64,000 nt of DNA from Pacificibacter maritimus (GTDB lineage Bacteria; Pseudomonadota; Alphaproteobacteria; Rhodobacterales; Rhodobacteraceae). The notes below the pieces were generated by a model, which saw nothing but the letters and a program-made list of their open reading frames with translations, was not told the origin of the DNA and did not search any database. The stretch is taken from assembly GCF_003814915.1 (NCBI RefSeq), contig NZ_RKQK01000006.1, forward strand, positions 1 to 64,000. Reading direction: 5' to 3'. Every line of letters starts with the position of its first letter. The first letter of the stretch is position 1. The position numbers and the translations under genes were made by a program. Shown here piece by piece: positions 15,449 through 25,674 of this stretch.

Positions 15449-16600
15449 ATGCGGAATTTTGCGAAAATAGTCACGGTTGCGGCCTTTAGCTTTGCAACTG
15501 CGGCAAGCGCGGATCAAGGCGTCAGCGATACAGAAATCAAATTTGCACAGGTGGCAGCCATCGAAGGCCCCGCCGCAGCCCTAGGGACAGGAATGCAATC
15601 AGGCATTCTTGCAGCCTTCGCAGAAGTTAACAGTGCAGGCGGCGTGTTTGGCCGCACCCTAACCTTGGACAGTATTGATGATGGTTATGAACCAAGCCGT
15701 TCAATCGACGCCGTCAAATCTGTCATTCAGTCGGACGAGTATCTGGGGCTTATCGGCCCTGTAGGAACCCCAACAACCAAGGCAACGCAACCTATCGCGA
15801 CCGCGGCCGATATGCCTGTCATTGGCCCTTTCACTGGGGCTGGTTTCTTGCGTGACCCCGCGTTGAAAAACGTCATCAATATGCGTGCATCATACGATGC
15901 TGAAACAGCTGCATGGGTCGACCACCTTGTTGATGATTTGGGCTATAGTAATATTGCAATCCTCTATCAAGATGATGGGTTTGGGCGTGTCGGACTGAGC
16001 GGTGTGACAAAAGCTCTTGATGCACGCGGCATGGCACTTTCTGCCACAGGTACTTACACGCGAAACACCGTCGCTGTAAAATCTGCATTGCTGGAAATTC
16101 GCAAAGCAAAACCCGAAGCCATAGTTATGGTGGGCGCCTACAAACCCTTGAGTGAGTTTGTAAAGCTAGCAAAAAAAATGCGCATGGATCCCACCTTTGT
16201 AACGATATCCTTTGTGGGATCGAAAGCCCTCTCCACAGAACTCGGCACAGATGGTGAAGGCGTGATTATCAGCCAAGTGGTGCCGCAACCATGGGACACT
16301 TCAATCCCCGTCGTTGCAGATTATCAAGCTGCGCTAAAAGCTCATGACCCATCAGTCGAGCCTGGATTTGTATCACTCGAAGGGTATTTGACAGGTCGCC
16401 TCGCAATCGAAGCCCTGAAAGCAGCTGGATCAGACCTCACCCGCGAGACCTATCTATCGGCGATGTCAGGCCTTCGGGATGTCGACTTCGGCGGCTTTCC
16501 AATGGTTTTCGGCCCCGGTGATAACCAAGGATCAGACGGCGTTTTCTTAACAAGAATCCTACCAGATGGGTCTTTCGAATCGGTCTCACCTACAAGCTAA
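15449..16600 (+). CDS. Periplasmic binding protein of the branched-chain amino acid ABC type, without transporter
   Basis: The product is 383 residues with a signal peptide (MRNFAKIVTVAAFSFATAAS, cut before ADQG). The mature part matches the Leu/Ile/Val-binding family (VSDTEIKFAQVAAIEGPAAA, LIGPVGTPTTKATQP). No LivHMGF permease or ATPase is near it; the next gene, 55 bases downstream, is a large chemoreceptor, and a hairpin lies between them. The likely role is to present a ligand to that receptor, as TorT does for TorS, rather than transport. A binding protein serving a distant transporter cannot be excluded. The ligand is unknown. Confidence 0.88.
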   Translation: MRNFAKIVTVAAFSFATAASADQGVSDTEIKFAQVAAIEGPAAALGTGMQSGILAAFAEVNSAGGVFGRTLTLDSIDDGYEPSRSIDAVKSVIQSDEYLGLIGPVGTPTTKATQPIATAADMPVIGPFTGAGFLRDPALKNVINMRASYDAETAAWVDHLVDDLGYSNIAILYQDDGFGRVGLSGVTKALDARGMALSATGTYTRNTVAVKSALLEIRKAKPEAIVMVGAYKPLSEFVKLAKKMRMDPTFVTISFVGSKALSTELGTDGEGVIISQVVPQPWDTSIPVVADYQAALKAHDPSVEPGFVSLEGYLTGRLAIEALKAAGSDLTRETYLSAMSGLRDVDFGGFPMVFGPGDNQGSDGVFLTRILPDGSFESVSPTS

Positions 16601-16607
16601 ACATCTG

Positions 16608-16635
16608 CGTTGGGCGGCAAACAGGCGGCCCAACG
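16608..16635 (+). repeat. Intercistronic hairpin between binding-protein and chemoreceptor genes
   Basis: CGTTGGGC (16608-16615) pairs exactly with GCCCAACG (16628-16635) around 12 bases. There is no T-run after it. It starts eight bases after the binding-protein stop codon, where it could protect that part of the transcript so that binding protein exceeds receptor. Confidence 0.65.
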
Positions 16636-16655
16636 ACTTGCCACAAATTTGAATC

Positions 16656-19439
16656 ATGGACACATCGGCTATGCCCCGTATTATTTCTCGTACCTTTCAC
16701 TCTTTGGTCGCTAGATCCGCACTCCTTTTAATGGTGTTGGCGGGGCTGATCGTCGCAGTGCTTCTTACCAGTTGGCTTGTTTTTCAAAAAATCGACACTC
16801 AAATGACCGTCCTTAAGGCCGAGCGTATGCCCGAACTGGAAGGTAGTTCAAATGTCATTGCGGCAACGGATGCGACCCGTGGCCTCCTAACATCCACTCT
16901 ATTCGCTCACGATCAAGCAGCCTTAGAAATTCAGGCCAAAGCTGCACAGGATATTTTTGCAAATTTCAATGCAGCCGTCGCCAGCCTCTCGCCCGCGACT
17001 GCCGCCTCAATGCGACCTACTTTGGAAGAAACAAAAGTTGCGGTATCTGATCTCTTAGAGGCCCGCTCCCAAGAATTTGCCGTCAGCGCAGCGATGATCC
17101 AAGCGATCCAATCCGCAGCAACAAGCGCAGAGATGACGAGCATTCTGATCGAGGAAGCGAATGACAACGCATTCTTTGACATGACATTAAATAGCGAAGA
17201 CAGCATAGCGACTATCGACGAGACCCTGACTCGTCTTGTCGACGATAATTTTGGCCAGTTTCAGGCTGCCCTCGCCATCCGCGGTGAGACCAATCTGATT
17301 GCAGGCCTTGCCATTGCATACAGTCAGGACAGCCGTTCGAATATCAGCACAATTATCGCGGATCTCGCAGCATCGTCGATCGACCGATTGGAACACTTGC
17401 TTGAGCAGGCGCAAAATATTCCTGCTTTTGCTGAAGTGGTCCCAACGACCGAGAACGCAATTTCAACATTTCGCACAGTTTTCAAAAGCGGTGTAAGCAG
17501 CAGAAATCAATCAGAAGTGCTCTCTGCGCGTTTGGCCGTAGACACAGTTCTGTCCCCTGCCCTCGACGATATCTATTTCGACCTTGTTATTGCGAGTGAT
17601 GAGGCCAAAGATACGAACCAAGCGGCACTTAAAGAATTGGTCGAGGGAGGTGTCGAAAGCATGCGGGTCAACGCAAGCTTAGACGCCGCCACAAAATACT
17701 ACTTTACCTTGCTTTTGCAGGTTTCCTCTGCACAAAGCATCGCAGAATTGGATCTACGCCAATCGGATCTATCCGCTTTGGCTGAGAACATCTTAAGATT
17801 AAAAGCCGATACTGAATTTGACCAACAAGCCGACCTCATAGCGCTGCTTGCGCTGGCGGATTCCGAAACAGGCTTGCGCGCCAAGCGTTTATTGGTCCTT
17901 GATGCACGATCGGCCGCACTCAGCGCGGCACAAGATGCGACACTCGCCGTTGACGCTATTGCAGCCGAAACATCTCGGTTCTCAGAAACTGTGTTCACAA
18001 AAATTGAAGACACCGCTGAATACTTGGCCCAAAGCGTCGATGGTGCCCGTGCTCAGCTTGTCAATATCGCCTATATCGCTTTGGCAATCGTCATGATTGT
18101 TCCAGTTTTCCTCTGGATATACATCACGCGTCCAATTTCGCGCGTGACCGCAGTTACCGAACGTCTCGCTGGTGGCGATCTATCCGAAATCACAGGATTG
18201 CCTGCCAACCAAGGCGAACTTGGCCGCATGTCGCTGGCGCTGCATGTCTTTCGTAACAAGGCGTTGGATGCAATCAAAATGCAACAAGAAGAACGCGAAC
18301 GCGAACGCGCCTTATTGGAAGCCGAGCGCACACTTGAACAAACGCGCCTGCAAGACGAACGCCAAAGAGCTACTGAAAAAGCGGAGCGTCAAAGACTTGA
18401 ACGCGAACAAGAAGCTCAACGAGATGCTGAAACAAAAGAGCGCCAGCAATTGGAAATGGCGGACCGTATTGCACGCATGGAAGAGCAAGCAATTGTTGTC
18501 GACGACCTCGCGCAAGGGCTCAAAAAATTGGCAAGTGGTGACCTCACCTTCCACATTCAACGCGACTTTCCTGAAGCATATAAAGCTTTGCGGAATGACT
18601 ACAACGCGGCGATCGAAAACCTCGCTCAGATTGTTCATCAGCTTAAAGGCTGCTCGCATACAATAGAAGGCAACTGCATGGAAATCGCGGAAGCATCCAC
18701 CGATCTCGCGCGCCGCGCCGAAACAAATGCGTCAACTTTGGCGGAAACGGCTGCATCCGTGGATCTATTGACCCAAAGCGTGACCGAAGCTGCACAAAGC
18801 GCCGATGACGCCAACAACACGCTGCAACATGTTCGAAAACAAGCCAAAATCAATCACGACATCATGAATCAAGCTAAATCTGCGATGGAGCAAGTCGAAA
18901 CGGCCTCCGAAAAAATCACGTCTATTGTTGACATAATTGACTCGGTCGCATTCCAAACCAATTTGCTTGCATTAAATGCGGGGATTGAAGCGGCGCGTGC
19001 CGGCAAAGCAGGTCAAGGGTTTGCGGTTGTGGCCTCAGAAGTGCGTACGCTTGCACAACGATGCAGCCAAGCCGCCAGTGAGGTGAGCTCTGTCGTAGAA
19101 GAAAGCACCAGAACCGTTCGCAAAGGGGTAGAATTGGCCGTGAACGCAAACAGCGCCATGGGTGAGATTAATTTGGGAATTGACCAAATTTCACAGATTG
19201 TCGAAAGCCTCACCAAATCGGCAACGGGGCAGGCCATCAGTCTAAAAGAGATCAACTTGTCCGTGCAGAACTTGGAACAATCAACGCAGCACAATGCTGC
19301 AATGTTCGAAGAGACATCGGCGTCAAATCACTTGCTCAATTCAGAAGCACTCGCGCTATCGCAGATTGTTAAATCGTTCTCAATCGGGGAAATTGCACAG
19401 ATTGAAGCGCATAATAGCGATACGCGCATCGCGTCATAG
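16656..19439 (+). CDS. Methyl-accepting chemotaxis protein with a large periplasmic domain
   Basis: The product is 927 residues, almost twice a typical chemoreceptor. After a membrane segment near 17-42 comes an all-helical periplasmic region of about 425 residues, then a second membrane segment near 469-491 (YIALAIVMIVPVFLWIYI), a HAMP domain, a highly charged coiled coil (about 550-630, rich in Glu/Arg/Gln), a second HAMP-like unit with ASGDLTF, and the signalling hairpin (AFQTNLLALNAGIEAARAGK, then GQGFAVVASEVRTLAQR). The periplasmic part is of a size and helical character like TorS sensor domains, which bind a periplasmic binding protein. No C-terminal CheR-tethering pentapeptide is present. 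It is co-directional with the binding protein just upstream. No other che genes are in the window. Confidence 0.93.
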   Translation: MDTSAMPRIISRTFHSLVARSALLLMVLAGLIVAVLLTSWLVFQKIDTQMTVLKAERMPELEGSSNVIAATDATRGLLTSTLFAHDQAALEIQAKAAQDIFANFNAAVASLSPATAASMRPTLEETKVAVSDLLEARSQEFAVSAAMIQAIQSAATSAEMTSILIEEANDNAFFDMTLNSEDSIATIDETLTRLVDDNFGQFQAALAIRGETNLIAGLAIAYSQDSRSNISTIIADLAASSIDRLEHLLEQAQNIPAFAEVVPTTENAISTFRTVFKSGVSSRNQSEVLSARLAVDTVLSPALDDIYFDLVIASDEAKDTNQAALKELVEGGVESMRVNASLDAATKYYFTLLLQVSSAQSIAELDLRQSDLSALAENILRLKADTEFDQQADLIALLALADSETGLRAKRLLVLDARSAALSAAQDATLAVDAIAAETSRFSETVFTKIEDTAEYLAQSVDGARAQLVNIAYIALAIVMIVPVFLWIYITRPISRVTAVTERLAGGDLSEITGLPANQGELGRMSLALHVFRNKALDAIKMQQEERERERALLEAERTLEQTRLQDERQRATEKAERQRLEREQEAQRDAETKERQQLEMADRIARMEEQAIVVDDLAQGLKKLASGDLTFHIQRDFPEAYKALRNDYNAAIENLAQIVHQLKGCSHTIEGNCMEIAEASTDLARRAETNASTLAETAASVDLLTQSVTEAAQSADDANNTLQHVRKQAKINHDIMNQAKSAMEQVETASEKITSIVDIIDSVAFQTNLLALNAGIEAARAGKAGQGFAVVASEVRTLAQRCSQAASEVSSVVEESTRTVRKGVELAVNANSAMGEINLGIDQISQIVESLTKSATGQAISLKEINLSVQNLEQSTQHNAAMFEETSASNHLLNSEALALSQIVKSFSIGEIAQIEAHNSDTRIAS

Positions 19440-19790
19440 CGCGCCTGCTGCGCATCAAAAATTGCGCAATGACTAAAAAACTAGAAATGCCCTCGCACCT
19501 TGCAGAGGCATTTCTAGTCCGCAGTACACCAAAATCTCTAAACCGAGAGCGCCTGCGATTGGCATCGACAATAGCGCGGATAAGGTTTTGCGGCTGAAAG
19601 CAGCTGATCACATTTATTATTCAACACTCTCTAATCAAAGGACGAAGACGTCACAAATGAGGTGCCCCCTGTTTTGGTATCGGCGTCAGATAGTTGCAAT
19701 CATGGCCCACAATCGCAGTCGGCGCAGGTTTACTTTAGCATCAAAGTTCGGATAATGATGTTTGTTCACATTGCGCTCAAAGGGGTTTTT
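19440..19790. other. Intergenic region between chemoreceptor and IclR regulator
   Basis: These 351 bases hold an inverted repeat at 19481-19517 and the upstream region of the IclR gene. An open frame runs from 19662 into the IclR gene but has no family resemblance before residue 44 and no ribosome-binding site, so I treat it as non-coding. Confidence 0.5.
19481..19517 (-). terminator. Inverted repeat with a T-run on the minus strand
   Basis: CTAGAAATGCCCTC pairs with GAGGCATTTCTAG apart from one extra C. On the minus strand TTTTTT follows directly, while on the plus strand no T-run follows. It looks like a terminator for leftward transcription, although the neighbouring genes run rightward; it may also block read-through from antisense transcripts. 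Confidence 0.5.
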
Positions 19791-20549
19791 ATGACCAACG
19801 CCACGGACATTATCGGATCATTTGCCAAGGGATTGCGCGTGTTGGAATGTTTCGGGGCAGATCGACCGCGCCTTGCGATCGCAGAAGTGGCCGCTCTGAC
19901 GGGGTTTGATCGCGCCACTGCAAGGCGGTGTTTGCTGACGCTGCACCACGAAGGTTATGCCGCCTATGACGGTAAATATTTCACCCTAACGCCACGGGTG
20001 TTGCGCCTTGGCATGGGCACTTTGGCCGCCCTGCCCTTGCCGCAAATTGTGCAACCTTGGTTGGATCAGTTGTCGGATCAGATCGGCCAGTCTTGTTCAG
20101 TATCCATCCTTGACGACACCGATATCGTTTATCTGGCGCGTGCTGCGCAACGCCGCGTGATGTCGATTGGATTGATGCCAGGATCGCGTTTGCCTGCGCA
20201 TTGCACCTCTATGGGCCGTATACTTTTGGCCGCCCTGCCCCCAGCCGAAGCCCGCGCCTTAATAGACCGTATGGACCTGACCCCGCGCACGGTGCATTCG
20301 CTCAATGATCCCGATGACATTATGACCGAACTTGGCCGTGTGCGCGATCAGGGCTATGCTGTGATTGATGAAGAAATCGAACTGGGCCTGAAATCGATCG
20401 CCGTACCCGTCTATGATGCTCGCGGGCGCATGGTCGCAGCCCTCAACACTGGCATGGCCGCTTTGCACGCCACGCCTGACACCATCGGTGACACCTATTT
20501 GCCCGCCTTGCTTAAAATGCAAGACGGTTTGCGGCGCGTTCTGCCCTAG
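19791..20549 (+). CDS. IclR-family regulator, pca/pob-type
   Basis: The product is 252 residues from the ATG at 19791, preceded by AAAGGGG. The longer frame from 19662 adds 43 residues unlike any IclR start. Residues 1-70 form the winged helix (FDRATARRCLLTLHHEGYA). The effector domain contains GLMPGSRLPAHCTSMGRILL, typical of PcaR/PobR-like regulators of aromatic acid catabolism. No pca genes are nearby, so its target is unknown; the extradiol dioxygenase operon at 43.5 kb has its own GntR regulator. It is convergent with yaaA, 10 bases away. Confidence 0.88.
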   Translation: MTNATDIIGSFAKGLRVLECFGADRPRLAIAEVAALTGFDRATARRCLLTLHHEGYAAYDGKYFTLTPRVLRLGMGTLAALPLPQIVQPWLDQLSDQIGQSCSVSILDDTDIVYLARAAQRRVMSIGLMPGSRLPAHCTSMGRILLAALPPAEARALIDRMDLTPRTVHSLNDPDDIMTELGRVRDQGYAVIDEEIELGLKSIAVPVYDARGRMVAALNTGMAALHATPDTIGDTYLPALLKMQDGLRRVLP

Positions 20550-21414: not shown

Positions 21415-22644
21415 CTATGCAAAGGCTTCGGGATCAATTTCTTGCCAAAAGGCGATGATCTCTGCGTGGTTCAGTGATGACACCCAGCCGTAGTTTTCAA
21501 AATCCAATAAGGCCGCACCCTCTAGCTTAGAGCTAAACAAACGTTTGTCCGCATCGCGTTGCGTTGGACTGCGCCCATTCACCAAACCTTGTAAAATTTC
21601 CAAACGCCGCGCACGCTCTGCCCCTTGGGCACTTAAGGTCACGGGCGCGCTTTGGTTTCGCGGCGAAACCGTGGTGCCGCTAAAATCTTGAGTCAAGGCT
21701 GCGCGCAGATAGCTGACAGGGTTCTTAACACTCCCCTGCCCCGCTACGTAATCCAATTGTTTGCGCACATAGGCTTCGTCATGTTCTTTCATCCATTGCA
21801 AAGCCAAACGATCACTGACCCCCAAGGCACGCATGCGTTTGTACAAATCAGACCTGCGCACCCCCTCGCCATCGTCCAAATCCAAAATCGACAGTTGCGG
21901 ATTTTCGGCAATCTTGAACCGAATTTCAGACACAGACCGCCCGACCCTTTTGGTTTCAGGCGTCACCACAATATTCGATGTTTTATTCACCTCAGCCACA
22001 GCGGGTTTGATGATCTTGGCATTCAGATGTTTATAAACCTCATAATACGGGCTGTCAGACACCCCCATGAGCCTGCGAAACAAATCCAAAGACCACCAGC
22101 CTGTCGAGCCCGTGCGCACAAACCGATAACAATTTTCATATAGCGCCAAGGCATGGCCAGATGTGAATTTGCGTTGAATGTTCAAATTGATCAAAGCAAA
22201 GACTTTTGGATCATCCAGCTTCTGCGCCAAAGCAGGCGAATAGGCATATTCGCAAATGCCGCCTTTCAATTTGGCGTAACTCAACAAAGACGAAACGCCC
22301 CATTCTTGGCGTCCTTCTTCATCCAGCATATCCCATTCGGCTACGGTTTCTGCCAAGCCGCGCAATGACTGTTTCAACGTCTCCATATCGTTGGAATTAT
22401 AGCCGATCATCATGCATAAAGTCCGCGCATCAATCTGATGCACTTGCTGGCTCATCAAAGTGTCATAGGCGTTGAGCAACAAAACATTCGACAGCTTGCG
22501 TTGTAATAGCGTCAGCTTTCCTGATACGTGAATAGCGGCGACATTCTTTTTCACCGCCCCGCGGCGCAAAGACCCCGAGAGCTTATCTTTTTCAATACTG
22601 TCCATGGCCTGCTTGCCCTCATCCGTCTGGGCTTGTTTGTTCAA
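21415..22644 (-). CDS. Plasmid replication initiator protein (Rep_3-like)
   Basis: The product is 409 residues. From about residue 35 it shows the initiator winged-helix fold (LTLLQRKLSNVLLLNAYDTL, then FTSGHALALYENCYRFVRTG), followed by a second winged helix and a linker to a C-terminal domain of about 130 residues. Such proteins bind iterons and open the origin of low-copy plasmids. The divergent parAB genes and the repeat-rich gap at 22645-23183 confirm a replication locus. Roseobacter replicons with this arrangement are called RepA- or RepB-type in the literature; I cannot tell which class from the sequence alone, so I give no symbol. Confidence 0.85.
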   Translation of the reverse strand: MNKQAQTDEGKQAMDSIEKDKLSGSLRRGAVKKNVAAIHVSGKLTLLQRKLSNVLLLNAYDTLMSQQVHQIDARTLCMMIGYNSNDMETLKQSLRGLAETVAEWDMLDEEGRQEWGVSSLLSYAKLKGGICEYAYSPALAQKLDDPKVFALINLNIQRKFTSGHALALYENCYRFVRTGSTGWWSLDLFRRLMGVSDSPYYEVYKHLNAKIIKPAVAEVNKTSNIVVTPETKRVGRSVSEIRFKIAENPQLSILDLDDGEGVRRSDLYKRMRALGVSDRLALQWMKEHDEAYVRKQLDYVAGQGSVKNPVSYLRAALTQDFSGTTVSPRNQSAPVTLSAQGAERARRLEILQGLVNGRSPTQRDADKRLFSSKLEGAALLDFENYGWVSSLNHAEIIAFWQEIDPEAFA

Positions 22645-22693
22645 GCCTCATCTACGATTCGTATTCTTTTACGTGTTAGCAGTATTTCGCATA

Positions 22694-22726
22694 AGGTGCC
22701 CGCAAACAAGTTTTGTTTTGGCACCT
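22694..22726. repeat. Inverted AGGTGCC / GGCACCT pair beside the rep start
   Basis: AGGTGCC (22694-22700) and GGCACCT (22720-22726) are exact inverted arms 19 bases apart, about 50 bases upstream of the rep start codon. They probably bind the initiator for autoregulation or replication. Confidence 0.55.
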
Positions 22727-22958
22727 GAACACTGCTCCCCGTAGACAGGTACCTTAAAGCCCCAGCGCCTTTTAAAGGAACCCAAATACAGGAAATAATG
22801 CGATCAATGATTCACTGCCTGCAAACCGATTCGCACGAAAGAGACACTAAACAATCATTTTGAGTGTCTAATCTTCGACTTCCCGCGCTGAACCCGAGAA
22901 TCGGCACCTAAAATCCCGCAAAAGGGTGCCTTTGATCCTGTATTTGGTCCCCTGTCAG

Positions 22959-22970
22959 CCTGTATACAGG
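22959..22970. repeat. Perfect palindrome CCTGTATACAGG in the origin region
   Basis: This 12-bp palindrome contains the CTGTAT/ATACAG core also present in the inverted pair at about 22782 and 22935. It overlaps a GGCACC element and borders the AT-rich stretch. It could be a Rep- or partition-protein site. Confidence 0.55.
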
Positions 22971-23183
22971 CACCAATATACATTTAAGCTATTGTAATAT
23001 ATACATTTATACCGACGTAAAGATTCTTAAATTCTTCTAAAAAGAACTAAACAGGGTCTGTTGTTTTCTAATTTTTAAATTATGATCTGGGTTAAGCTTC
23101 AATTGGATTCACTTTACCTCTCTTACGTGCTATAAAATATAGAACATAGCATAAAAATGCGAACATGAGCAGGTACGGAACAG

Positions 23184-24599
23184 ATGGCAACAGGTCCTAA
23201 GGGTAAAGAGTCCCTTCCCCCATATTTCAATATTGATCCTAAGGCGGCAGCAGAAAAACTGGCAGAGCCTATTCACACAGCGCGTTTTGCCAAAGCGGCA
23301 GCTTTCGCGGGGCGTGGTCGTGATGATCTGGCGAAACGAGGTTATGCCCCAGACGGCAAAAAGCGTCTACGTAAGTTTTCGATTTGGGAAATCTGTAAAT
23401 ATCTCATACCTGTTGCGCCCGCGCATTTGCGGCGCGTTTTGAAAGCACATCCAGATTTGCCACAAGGCGACGGGGCCAGTAATTCCAAGTGGTTCACGCT
23501 AGAAGACGTTTTAACGCTGCGCGAACATTTTGCCAAAGAAGGCGCACCCAATCGCGAATATACCTCTTGGCGCCCTGAAGGATTGCCAGCAAAGGTCGTT
23601 GCTGTAGCAAATTTTAAAGGGGGCGTTGGCAAGACCTCAACAGCAGCTCATTTGGCCATGTCAGCTGGCCTTGATGGCTACAAAGTTTTGGTCATCGATT
23701 TGGACAGCCAGGGGTCAATGACATCCATCATGGGCGGGCAAGTTGCTGATGAATGGGAAACAGCTTTCCCGCTTTTGGCACGGGATTATGCGCAGGCTTT
23801 GCAACGTGAAAATACCGTGCGTGAAGCTGCGGGTCAGGCGCCTTTTCCATTTGACGAAACCCTGACAGAAGCGCTTGAGGTTTCGCCGCGAAACTTGGTG
23901 CAGAAGACCCATTGGCCCAATATCGACCTCATCGGTGCACAGCTGAATTTGTATTGGGCGGAATTTCAGGTTCCTGTTTGGCGTATGCAATTGAGGTCTT
24001 GGGCTTTGTGGGATTCACTGTCAAATGCCTTAGATGAAGGTGGGCTACTGGATGAATACGACATCATCTTGCTCGATACGCCCCCCGCACTTGGGTACCT
24101 GACCATCAACGCTTTGGCGGCTTCTGATATCTTACTTGTACCGCTTGGTGCGTCCTTCTTGGAATTCGATTCCACGGGGCGTTTCTTTGATATGATCTAT
24201 TCTACCTTTGCCTCAATTGAAGAGGGCGAAAACCGGATCAGGCGCGCTGATGGTCTGCCAGAAATGCGCTTTGAATGGGATGCCGTGCGCGCTTTGATTA
24301 CGCGCTTTGATGCCTCGCAACAAACTGATTTGGCCAATGTCATCCAAGCCTATTTCGGGGATTTCATGACCACCTATCGCCAAGATGTCACGGCCATGGT
24401 TGGACAAGCGGGTGAACAAGTGTCGGGCATTTACGAGACCGATTATCGGGACTTCAATCGCGATACTTATGTGCGCGGACGCGAGACATTTGATCAAACT
24501 TGGGCCGAGATTAAGCAAGTGATTTTGGGCACATGGTGGCGGGATCTTCAAATGGCAGAAGCCGAAAAGCAAGAGGGTGATGACAATGGCAAAGCGTAG
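23184..24599 (+). CDS. parA: Partition ATPase ParA (RepA-like)
   Basis: The product is 471 residues. Residues 1-130 form an N-terminal region with a predicted helix-turn-helix (KRLRKFSIWEICKYLI) that lets such proteins repress their own promoter. The ATPase begins with the deviant Walker A FKGGVGKTST near residue 148, continues with VLVIDLDSQGSMT, and has YDIILLDTPPALGYLTINAL near residue 292. It segregates replicon copies with ParB. It is divergent from rep across the origin and overlaps parB, so the two are co-translated. Confidence 0.95.
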   Translation: MATGPKGKESLPPYFNIDPKAAAEKLAEPIHTARFAKAAAFAGRGRDDLAKRGYAPDGKKRLRKFSIWEICKYLIPVAPAHLRRVLKAHPDLPQGDGASNSKWFTLEDVLTLREHFAKEGAPNREYTSWRPEGLPAKVVAVANFKGGVGKTSTAAHLAMSAGLDGYKVLVIDLDSQGSMTSIMGGQVADEWETAFPLLARDYAQALQRENTVREAAGQAPFPFDETLTEALEVSPRNLVQKTHWPNIDLIGAQLNLYWAEFQVPVWRMQLRSWALWDSLSNALDEGGLLDEYDIILLDTPPALGYLTINALAASDILLVPLGASFLEFDSTGRFFDMIYSTFASIEEGENRIRRADGLPEMRFEWDAVRALITRFDASQQTDLANVIQAYFGDFMTTYRQDVTAMVGQAGEQVSGIYETDYRDFNRDTYVRGRETFDQTWAEIKQVILGTWWRDLQMAEAEKQEGDDNGKA

Positions 24600-25674
24600 A
24601 AAATTGGTTGCACCATCTGCGACAGATCTGGATCAAATCGAACAAGAGTTTCGCGGCGAAACCCCATCGCGCAGTCCGCTCAGCGTCCCAATTGCACAGG
24701 TTGCTGCCGAAGCCGCCAGCGCCCATGACCCGCGGAGCTTGGAAATGCGGGCGCAAGCGGCCAAAAATGAAACTGACGCTAAAACTTTGCACGAGGCCCA
24801 GTCTAAAGGTCTGATTATAATAGAAATACCAGTCTCTGACATCCACGCAGATGCGCTTGTTCGGGATCGCGTCGTCTTAGACGCAGAACAAATGAACGAG
24901 TTGCAACTGTCAATCGCCAAAAGTGGTTTGCGATTGCCGATTGAGGTGTTCGAACTGGCCCAGACGGATACGGATCAACCCTACGGGTTGCTATCGGGCT
25001 ACCGCCGTTTGCATGCGATCAAAGCCTTGCGTGACCTGACTGGCGATCCGAAATATGACACGGTAAAAGCCATCCTGCGCGACCCCGACGCAATGGGTGG
25101 AACTTTTGCGGCTATGATCGAAGAAAACGAAATTCGCGCCGCATTAAGCCATTTCGAACGCGGCCGCATTTCTGTGATTGCCGCTCAGCAGGGCGTTTTT
25201 GAAAACACCGAAGCAGCCGTGAACGGTCTGTTCCCAATGGCGTCAAAAGCCAAACGGTCTAAAATTCGCTCCTTTGCGCTAATCTTTGAAGAGCTAGGCG
25301 ATATGCTGAAATTCCCCGATCTCATCAAAGAGAAAGAGGGTCTGAAAATTGCCGCCGCTTTGCGTGACGGATATGAGGCAAAACTGCGCAACGAATTGGC
25401 GCTTCATTCCCCCACTGACCCCGCGCATGAGGCCGCCATTCTAGACACTGCTTTGGCTGGGTTAGACCCTGTAAAGCCAAATCCAAAAAAGGGGGGGCGT
25501 CCGAAGAAAACGACCGCGGGGGCAGGGCGGTCGGTGACGCTAAAGTCGGGTGTGCAATTGACCAGTGACCATGATGGTTCGGGGTGGTTGATCCGTGTGA
25601 ATGGAAGCCGCGTGGATCGGGAATTGATCGAAGTCGCAATGGGTGAATTAAGCCGTTTGCTTGATGCGGATTGA
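24586..25674 (+). CDS. parB: Partition protein ParB (RepB-like)
   Basis: The product is 362 residues from the ATG at 24586 (MAKRRKL); GTG at 24577 and ATG at 24580 are alternatives, and all overlap the end of parA. The N-domain contains PVSDIHADALVRDRVVLDAE and SGYRRLHAIKAL, the latter aligning with the ParB arginine patch, and MIEENEIRAALSHFERGR. The central part binds centromere sites. The C-terminus carries a basic stretch (PKKGGRPKKT) before the dimerisation segment. With ParA it ensures stable inheritance. The centromere sites were not identified with certainty. Confidence 0.93.
   Translation: MAKRRKLVAPSATDLDQIEQEFRGETPSRSPLSVPIAQVAAEAASAHDPRSLEMRAQAAKNETDAKTLHEAQSKGLIIIEIPVSDIHADALVRDRVVLDAEQMNELQLSIAKSGLRLPIEVFELAQTDTDQPYGLLSGYRRLHAIKALRDLTGDPKYDTVKAILRDPDAMGGTFAAMIEENEIRAALSHFERGRISVIAAQQGVFENTEAAVNGLFPMASKAKRSKIRSFALIFEELGDMLKFPDLIKEKEGLKIAAALRDGYEAKLRNELALHSPTDPAHEAAILDTALAGLDPVKPNPKKGGRPKKTTAGAGRSVTLKSGVQLTSDHDGSGWLIRVNGSRVDRELIEVAMGELSRLLDAD

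Follow-up and report, generated by a model that had tools for sequence, protein, structure and literature searches.

Within the first 64 kb of contig C6 (NZ_RKQK01000006.1) of Pacificibacter maritimus (assembly GCF_003814915.1; genome of 3.08 Mb in eight contigs), i.e. the 64,000-nucleotide (nt) stretch analysed here and called the window, a gene for a secreted solute-binding protein (SBP) is followed by a gene for a methyl-accepting chemotaxis protein (MCP) with a helical periplasmic sensor. The two open reading frames (ORFs) lie at 15449-16600 (383 amino acids, aa) and 16656-19439 (927 aa) and are separated by 55 nt, exactly as in the original prediction, which had been made from the DNA alone and had taken them for a TorT/TorS-like chemosensing unit. 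The genes, their conserved pairing, a helical model of the sensor, its similarity to McpZ and TorS, an internal repeat, and the chemotaxis and flagellin genes of the genome were all computed here. On these grounds, the pair is likely to represent a TorT/TorS-type, binding-protein-dependent chemoreceptor with a duplicated sensor module. Its features are:

15449-16600, plus strand: Peripla_BP_6 (LivJ-superfamily) SBP, 383 aa, no adjacent transporter gene
15449-15511, plus strand: Sec-type signal peptide of the SBP, residues ~1-21, recognized by eye
16656-19439, plus strand: methyl-accepting chemotaxis receptor, 927 aa
16707-16793, plus strand: transmembrane segment 1, residues ~18-46, by hydropathy
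16794-18041, plus strand: periplasmic all-helical sensor, residues ~47-462, McpZ/TorS-like, probably of three modules
17130-17438, plus strand: copy 1 of a duplicated helical unit, residues 159-261
17532-17885, plus strand: copy 2 of the duplicated helical unit, residues 293-410
18042-18140, plus strand: transmembrane segment 2, residues ~463-495, by hydropathy
18120-18257, plus strand: HAMP domain 1, residues 489-534 (26.9 bits, Pfam cut-off 25)
18507-18623, plus strand: probable HAMP domain 2, residues 618-656 (below the Pfam cut-off, E 0.15)
18825-19280, plus strand: MCP signalling domain, residues 724-875 (MCPsignal, E 1.5e-38)

As in other SBP-dependent chemoreceptors, an MCP signalling domain and a HAMP domain follow two transmembrane segments, and the genome encodes three MCPs, CheW, a CheW-domain protein of the size of CheA, CheB, CheD and flagellin. 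The second HAMP domain is probable, since curated MCP models extend across residues 618-656 despite the Pfam score. The double HAMP and the charged coiled coil, previously considered unusual, appear to be ordinary, since that stretch alone is matched by many MCPs that lack this sensor. The periplasmic part, put at about 425 residues, spans ~415 by hydropathy, while its all-helical character was borne out by the model.

The pairing of the two genes is widely conserved. In a scan of genome contigs, all 15 close homologues of the SBP (63-76 % identity) were followed on the same strand by a relative of the MCP, and the same pair was found on plasmids of Thioclava (locus L001) and Phaeobacter (L002). 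We then turned to 394 Rhodobacteraceae genomes from 393 genera, for which three to four first-look candidates were scored per genome, so that the tallies are lower bounds; this set and the contig scan overlap, with L044 and genome G196 being one sequence. The sensor profile of the window family (A1) was found in at least 35 places in 33 genomes (E 1e-50 or better) and the SBP in at least 37 places in 34 genomes (E 1e-60 or better). In 25 of the 37 SBP places, an MCP whose sensor is related (matching A1 at E 3.4e-21 or better) comes next on the same strand, with gaps of -133 to +164 nt as the starts were assigned, and conversely 22 of the 35 receptor places have the SBP immediately before them. 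The 92 genes flanking the 25 pairs fell into 68 clusters, none of them common to more than six loci: most flanking genes are the same at six Roseobacter loci, those of L002 and L098 agree with each other, and one or two genes recur among a few others (flanks, as well as the SBPs without a receptor described below, were judged from ORFs, not all of which were typed). Outside the family, 12 of 240 genomes sampled from the class matched A1 at E 1e-8, the window genome included, and in six of the 11 other matches the gene immediately upstream encodes an SBP, with 46-66 % identity in five cases and 29 % in one; the five come from four families, two of them from one genus. Considering that the genome holds three MCPs, chance would clearly be expected to yield far less than one such pairing in 37. 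Adjacency across Rhodobacteraceae, proposed earlier as a check, therefore holds across the family and extends into other alphaproteobacterial families. Since the pair recurs in so many relatives, the receptor probably senses by reading the binding protein.

The sensor itself resembles both McpZ and TorS. An AlphaFold2 model of residues 40-470, based on 16 sequences, is all helix (pLDDT 88.7, pTM 0.61), and one of its helices extends over 112 residues. The top Foldseek match in the PDB was the McpZ sensor 8f7n (E 1.3e-4, probability 1.00, TM-scores TMq 0.45 and TMt 0.52), which we take to be made of three concatenated four-helix bundles; helix lengths and the repeat described below suggest three helical modules in the window sensor. 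TorS was matched by 3o1h_A (E 0.013, probability 0.99, TMt 0.28) and 3i9w (E 0.11, probability 1.00, TMt 0.64). When PDB sequences were searched with the sensor profiles, neither McpZ nor TorS was found (McpZ not even at E 10). A sequence link to TorS was provided by L182, a receptor of another family that lies behind an SBP 66 % identical to that of the window and matches A1 at 2.2e-37. It also matches PF21689 TorS_sensor_domain (1.7e-10, above the cut-off, over profile positions 1-109 of 275 only) and TIGR02956 TorS (9.4e-27, far below the model cut-off and partly over the transmembrane and HAMP regions). In addition, A1 aligned with a class-level profile of five sequences (A4) over 482 columns at E 4.1e-29. 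The window sensor thus appears to belong to the TorS family in a wide sense, with L182 as the bridge. The match to the expected TorS-like fold is weak, with McpZ the better one and the sequence link running through L182 only. TorS proper has a histidine kinase output, while the output here is an MCP, i.e. the window receptor may work like TorS without being one.

Of the two systems, TorS has the smaller sensor, and an internal repeat may account for the difference. Within A4, two adjacent stretches of ~150 residues align with each other (E 2.6e-28, 33 % identity), and in the window family an alignment links residues 159-261 to residues 293-410 (E 3.2e-7, probability 93; the best P among 100 column shuffles used as control was 1.4e-3), each window copy matching each A4 copy at 4.6e-12 or better. 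A profile of four kinase sensors of ~310 residues (A3) aligned with A4 from end to end (E 2.5e-36), A4 having ~156 extra columns, and both A4 copies matched a single kinase stretch (2.8e-12 and 5.7e-19). The step from window to kinase rests on A4, because the window copies match the kinase stretch weakly when compared directly (P 0.004-0.005). One of the controls, segment 41-149, gave an alignment with copy 2 as well (E 2.9e-6, probability 88), and part of the repeat signal may therefore be general to stacked helical modules; the match of segment 400-470 to copy 2 (7.8e-10 over 21 columns) is trivial, since the stretches overlap, and the three remaining controls gave E 0.012 to 0.2. In the window the duplicated module comprises 100-120 residues, against ~150 in the class-level relatives. 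Taken together, the sensor appears to be a TorS-size sensor with one module duplicated in tandem, resulting in a McpZ-like stack, and it is larger than TorS because this module is apparently present twice, while the kinase sensors hold it once.

Related receptors occur next to another binding protein. No close copy of the receptor was found in 19 other genomes of the same genus, 13 of which harbour a paralogue (26-30 % identity over nearly all of the 658 residues queried). All 13 paralogues (L004-L015 and L017) are divergent to urtA of a urea ABC transporter. Genes resembling the other urt genes followed urtA in the four regions read by eye (L049, L050, L053 and L054), and the UrtA of L049 matched Peripla_BP_5 at 5.9e-158. 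These paralogues plausibly read UrtA, which would make them candidate urea chemoreceptors and, if true, predicts urea chemotaxis via UrtA in relatives of P. maritimus. The idea that the pair has a genomic module of its own thus stands for the pair, but not for all related receptors, some of which adjoin the urtA of a transporter operon.

The comparison of both receptor groups points to a candidate docking surface. Module limits were set by helix lengths, and conservation was computed over 37 of 42 pairs, after dropping L111 (the same strain as L044) and L085, L086, L154 and L122 (divergent or cut sensors). The share of the commonest residue was 0.58 in distal helix 3, 0.54 in distal helix 6, 0.49 in helix 4 and 0.28 in helix 5; by comparison, the middle helices ranged from 0.37 to 0.48 and the membrane-proximal ones from 0.32 to 0.46. 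Between 95 and 100 % of the 37 SBP-paired receptors retain Ile233, Asp236, Leu289, Asp304 and Phe308, while in the 13 urtA-linked receptors the commonest residues of the same columns are Glu (46 %), Asp (23 %), His (46 %), Glu (62 %) and Ala (38 %), respectively. This suggests that the conserved distal residues form a partner-specific surface; the difference could instead mark two clades.

While the SBP stays the same, the receptor outputs with which it is combined vary between MCP, histidine kinase, GGDEF and GGDEF-EAL. A histidine kinase follows in four of the 37 SBP places (G152, G033, G102:C5 and G252), and in one place (G282) a single ORF encodes both the SBP and an MCP signalling domain. 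At L087, L088, L089 and L155, SBP relatives (41-51 % identical) precede a histidine kinase with a TorS-size sensor and themselves sit behind a response-regulator gene (with SpoIIE and HATPase domains in L087, by eye in the others). ORFs of ~700 aa at L091:6925-9024 (G126) and L156:6137-8263 (G282) combine an MCP signalling domain with a Peripla_BP_6 domain at the C-terminus; in that of L091 no clear transmembrane segment was seen, and such a fusion may be a soluble chemoreceptor that has captured a binding protein. The SBP was detected at E 1e-60 in 35 of 299 genomes sampled from the phylum. Twenty regions were read, covering 21 of 33 new places (L223 ends at a contig end), with downstream genes taken from raw ORFs in often GC-rich DNA. 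In four of them a receptor with transmembrane segments lies directly downstream of the SBP, i.e. one MCP, two GGDEF and one GGDEF-EAL protein.

From these data we infer that the SBP contacts the sensor, where it docks, in which direction the signal runs, and that the output is chemotaxis. The secreted Peripla_BP_6 protein would bind a solute in the periplasm and rest on the tall helical sensor, probably on its membrane-distal part and perhaps both with and without ligand; TorT-TorS complexes have been solved in both ligand states, going by the titles of the PDB entries. Opening or closing of the SBP upon ligand binding would then alter the sensor, and the change would pass through transmembrane segment 2 and HAMP to the tip of the MCP, where it would set the activity of CheA. 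That SBPs can activate chemoreceptors is established (PMC9602780 and PMC11113362).

Several observations weigh against such a binding-protein-dependent receptor. According to PMC11113362, three SBPs of Pseudomonas aeruginosa whose genes lie near those of the kinases AgtS and AruS fail to activate these kinases, and gene adjacency need not mean activation by the SBP. The McpZ sensor was the only one of 846 structural matches under E 0.001, with a root mean square deviation of 12.7, and two Rad50 chains (E 0.010 and 0.012; probability 0.69 and 0.63) outrank the first TorS match. At E 1, the window receptor matched neither PF21689 nor any other sensor family, whereas 16 of the 20 A1 members match the general four-helix family 4HB_MCP_1 at E <=1 (best 2.6e-7). 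PF21689 is also absent among the 25 of 30 families listed for the other 19 A1 members, and of the four typed SBP-linked class receptors only L182 has it above the cut-off, L181 falling below (6.3e-4) and L178 and L187 not being listed with it. Distances between SBPs track those between sensors (r 0.70), but also those between the intracellular HAMP 1 domains (r 0.68), and we therefore rejected coevolution as a proof of contact between SBP and sensor. The partial correlation of SBP and sensor given the cytoplasmic part was 0.57 (reached in 0 of 2000 permutations). Because HAMP 1 tracks the SBP too, these correlations demonstrate linkage, not contact or a docking site; they show only that HAMP 1 moves as one unit with the SBP and the sensor, the signalling end being swapped.

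Not every gene is paired, either. By ORF inspection, seven of the 37 SBPs have no receptor beside them, and 13 of the 35 receptors are not immediately preceded by this SBP, including G337:C13, which is located at the end of a contig. Among the latter, G015 is divergent to urtA, G346 has a liv-type permease gene at a distance of 1.3 kb and an SBP-like ORF nearby, G170 and G340 lie near TRAP DctP genes (3.5 kb away and adjacent, respectively), G129 lies 2.3 kb from a Peripla_BP_4 gene, and G396 retains a remnant of the SBP upstream of its intact receptor (L158:6997-7599); near the six others no SBP was seen among the neighbours, which were not typed. Receptor-less SBP relatives at L148, L149, L150 and L152 (57-64 %) are located directly behind a protein of 523-544 aa, which carries PBP_like_2 and OmpA domains in L148 and L149.

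The unpaired receptors are also what would be expected if the receptor bound a small molecule directly, as helical bimodular (HBM) receptors do in their helical sensors, and the SBP fed a transporter encoded elsewhere, their adjacency reflecting a shared substrate. The genome would offer such transporters, with 15 matches to the permease family BPD_transp_2. The earlier statement that the SBP has no transporter accordingly holds for its neighbourhood only. Yet a shared substrate does not readily explain why no flanking gene recurs at more than six of the 25 pair loci (with flanks untyped), why relatives of the SBP pair with four types of receptor output, or why TorS, to which the bridge relates the receptor, has been solved in complex with TorT (by structure titles), and direct binding is therefore unlikely. 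Less easily set aside, and compatible with the binding-protein-dependent receptor, is a double role of the SBP in serving both the receptor and a transporter. Escherichia coli maltose-binding protein serves both Tar and the maltose transporter. A double role would fit the related receptors divergent to urtA, which is followed by urt genes wherever the region was read (four cases), and the one located 1.3 kb from a liv-type permease gene. Nevertheless, no Liv-type permease operon adjoins the SBP in the window, L001 or L002, and we regard a double role as possible but rather doubtful.

Finally, the genes might be neighbours by descent or transfer only. The contig carries Rep3, ParA and ParB-like genes, and given these plasmid-type genes and the lack of a close receptor copy in the genus, the pair was probably acquired as a block. 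Joint transfer without a functional link is very improbable, however, as the pair is retained in several families of the class and amid flanks that are mostly unrelated, and relatives of the SBP repeatedly adjoin receptors of other types. A binding-protein-dependent chemoreceptor thus remains the reading that we favour.

Regarding the ligand, the SBP contains a full Peripla_BP_6 domain (E 1.6e-53), and its closest solved structures are 4kv7 (9e-68), 3lop and 4m88. The top NCBIfam match, a model of branched-chain amino acid SBPs, scored far under its cut-off (58.8 vs 477 bits). In alignment with E. coli LivJ and LivK, LivJ Glu226 is replaced by Ser254 and Tyr150 by Phe178, each in 41 of 42 rows of MCP-paired SBPs (one strain being present twice); Glu226 is the ammonium contact of LivJ. 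For LivJ Tyr202 the alignment leaves an ambiguity of one column, and this residue was left out of the argument. With neither residue kept, the SBP does not qualify as a LivJ-type branched-chain amino acid binder, and we rejected a LivJ-like amino acid ligand because the ammonium-binding Glu is Ser here. The description of the SBP as amino-acid-type is therefore appropriate as a family label, not as a statement on its ligand. Genes annotated as AzlCD and Lrp/AsnC behind the Phaeobacter pair (the AzlCD pair follows the receptor in L002), and similar genes in L098, speak contrary to this rejection. The hints from neighbouring genes disagree, since the regulator behind the window pair is of the PcaR/PcaU/PobR type, a possible link to aromatic acids, while M20-type amidohydrolases lie downstream of the SBP in four further phylum regions. 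The latter are distant SBP relatives (37-41 %) at L218, L224, L225 and L228, the gene in L218 standing behind a run of three SBP genes; they hint at possible N-acyl or amide ligands in that group.

The following features accompany the pair in the window:

16608-16635, plus strand: RNA hairpin with an 8-bp perfect outer stem and no T-run, by folding (z -3.0)
19782-20549: IclR-type regulator 3' of the receptor, above the cut-off of the PcaR/PcaU/PobR family
21415-25674: Rep3 initiator, RepA/ParA-like ATPase and ParB-like gene

Because of the Rep3, ParA/RepA-like and ParB-like genes, the contig is probably a plasmid. Besides the IclR-type regulator, the neighbours of the pair are two short-chain dehydrogenases/reductases (SDRs) and YaeQ, and a sugar-type ABC operon with a Peripla_BP_4 protein of its own, to which one of the 15 BPD_transp_2 matches belongs, ends 2.5 kb upstream. 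No terminator-like site was found in the 55-nt gap between SBP and receptor genes. In ten hand-picked pairs that were folded, a hairpin of at least 8 pairs directly follows the SBP stop codon in all ten, with unrelated sequences, and z against shuffles was -1.7 to -6.0 in nine, the exception being L036 (z 0.02). In transport operons, hairpins between SBP and permease genes favour the SBP over the permease; by analogy, those found here could raise the level of the SBP over that of the receptor.

It is tempting to speculate further that the tri-modular alphaproteobacterial sensors, perhaps including McpZ, are dedicated readers of the LivJ/UrtA superfamily that arose by duplication of a TorS-like module, that the SBP has been re-used by chemotaxis, kinase and cyclic di-GMP outputs, that it docks on the distal module (Asp236, Asp304 and Phe308), and that the same family provides urea chemotaxis via UrtA. 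We advance this wider proposal tentatively, as something that could nearly as well hold as fail. If true, large helical chemoreceptor sensors would gain a testable class of ligand, i.e. a protein instead of a small molecule, and the pair would show how a sensor of TorS size may have grown through internal duplication. In the literature surveyed by title and abstract, with subscription journals mostly outside, we found no description of a McpZ-like sensor with an adjacent SBP, of the repeat linking it to TorS-size sensors, or of the linkage to urtA.

Among known systems, TorT/TorS (3o1h, 3o1i and 3i9w), in which an SBP and a histidine kinase sense trimethylamine N-oxide (TMAO), shares with the window pair the SBP, a two-transmembrane receptor and a tall helical sensor, the fold match being weak and the sequence bridge leading via L182 to PF21689 and TIGR02956. 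In contrast, the output in the window is an MCP, the sensor of ~415 residues contains an internal repeat, and the SBP belongs to Peripla_BP_6, while TorT is presumably RbsB-like. No TMAO reductase genes were noticed among the ORFs near the pair, for which no dedicated search was made. HBM chemoreceptors such as McpS and McpK have helical two-module periplasmic sensors as well, but the HBM profile was unmatched by the window protein at E 1. SBP-read chemoreceptors of E. coli have smaller sensors, and their SBPs are shared with transporters. Like the window receptor as proposed here, they are activated by the loaded SBP (PMC9602780). According to PMC9769921, GlnH and GlnX of Corynebacterium glutamicum, a binding protein and a transmembrane protein, are thought to signal together; this resembles the window pair in combining an SBP with a membrane partner and differs in the output, which is the kinase PknG and not an MCP. 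The closest counterpart in fold is McpZ of Sinorhizobium meliloti (8f7n), which is also a chemoreceptor, even though the profile of the window sensor does not reach it.

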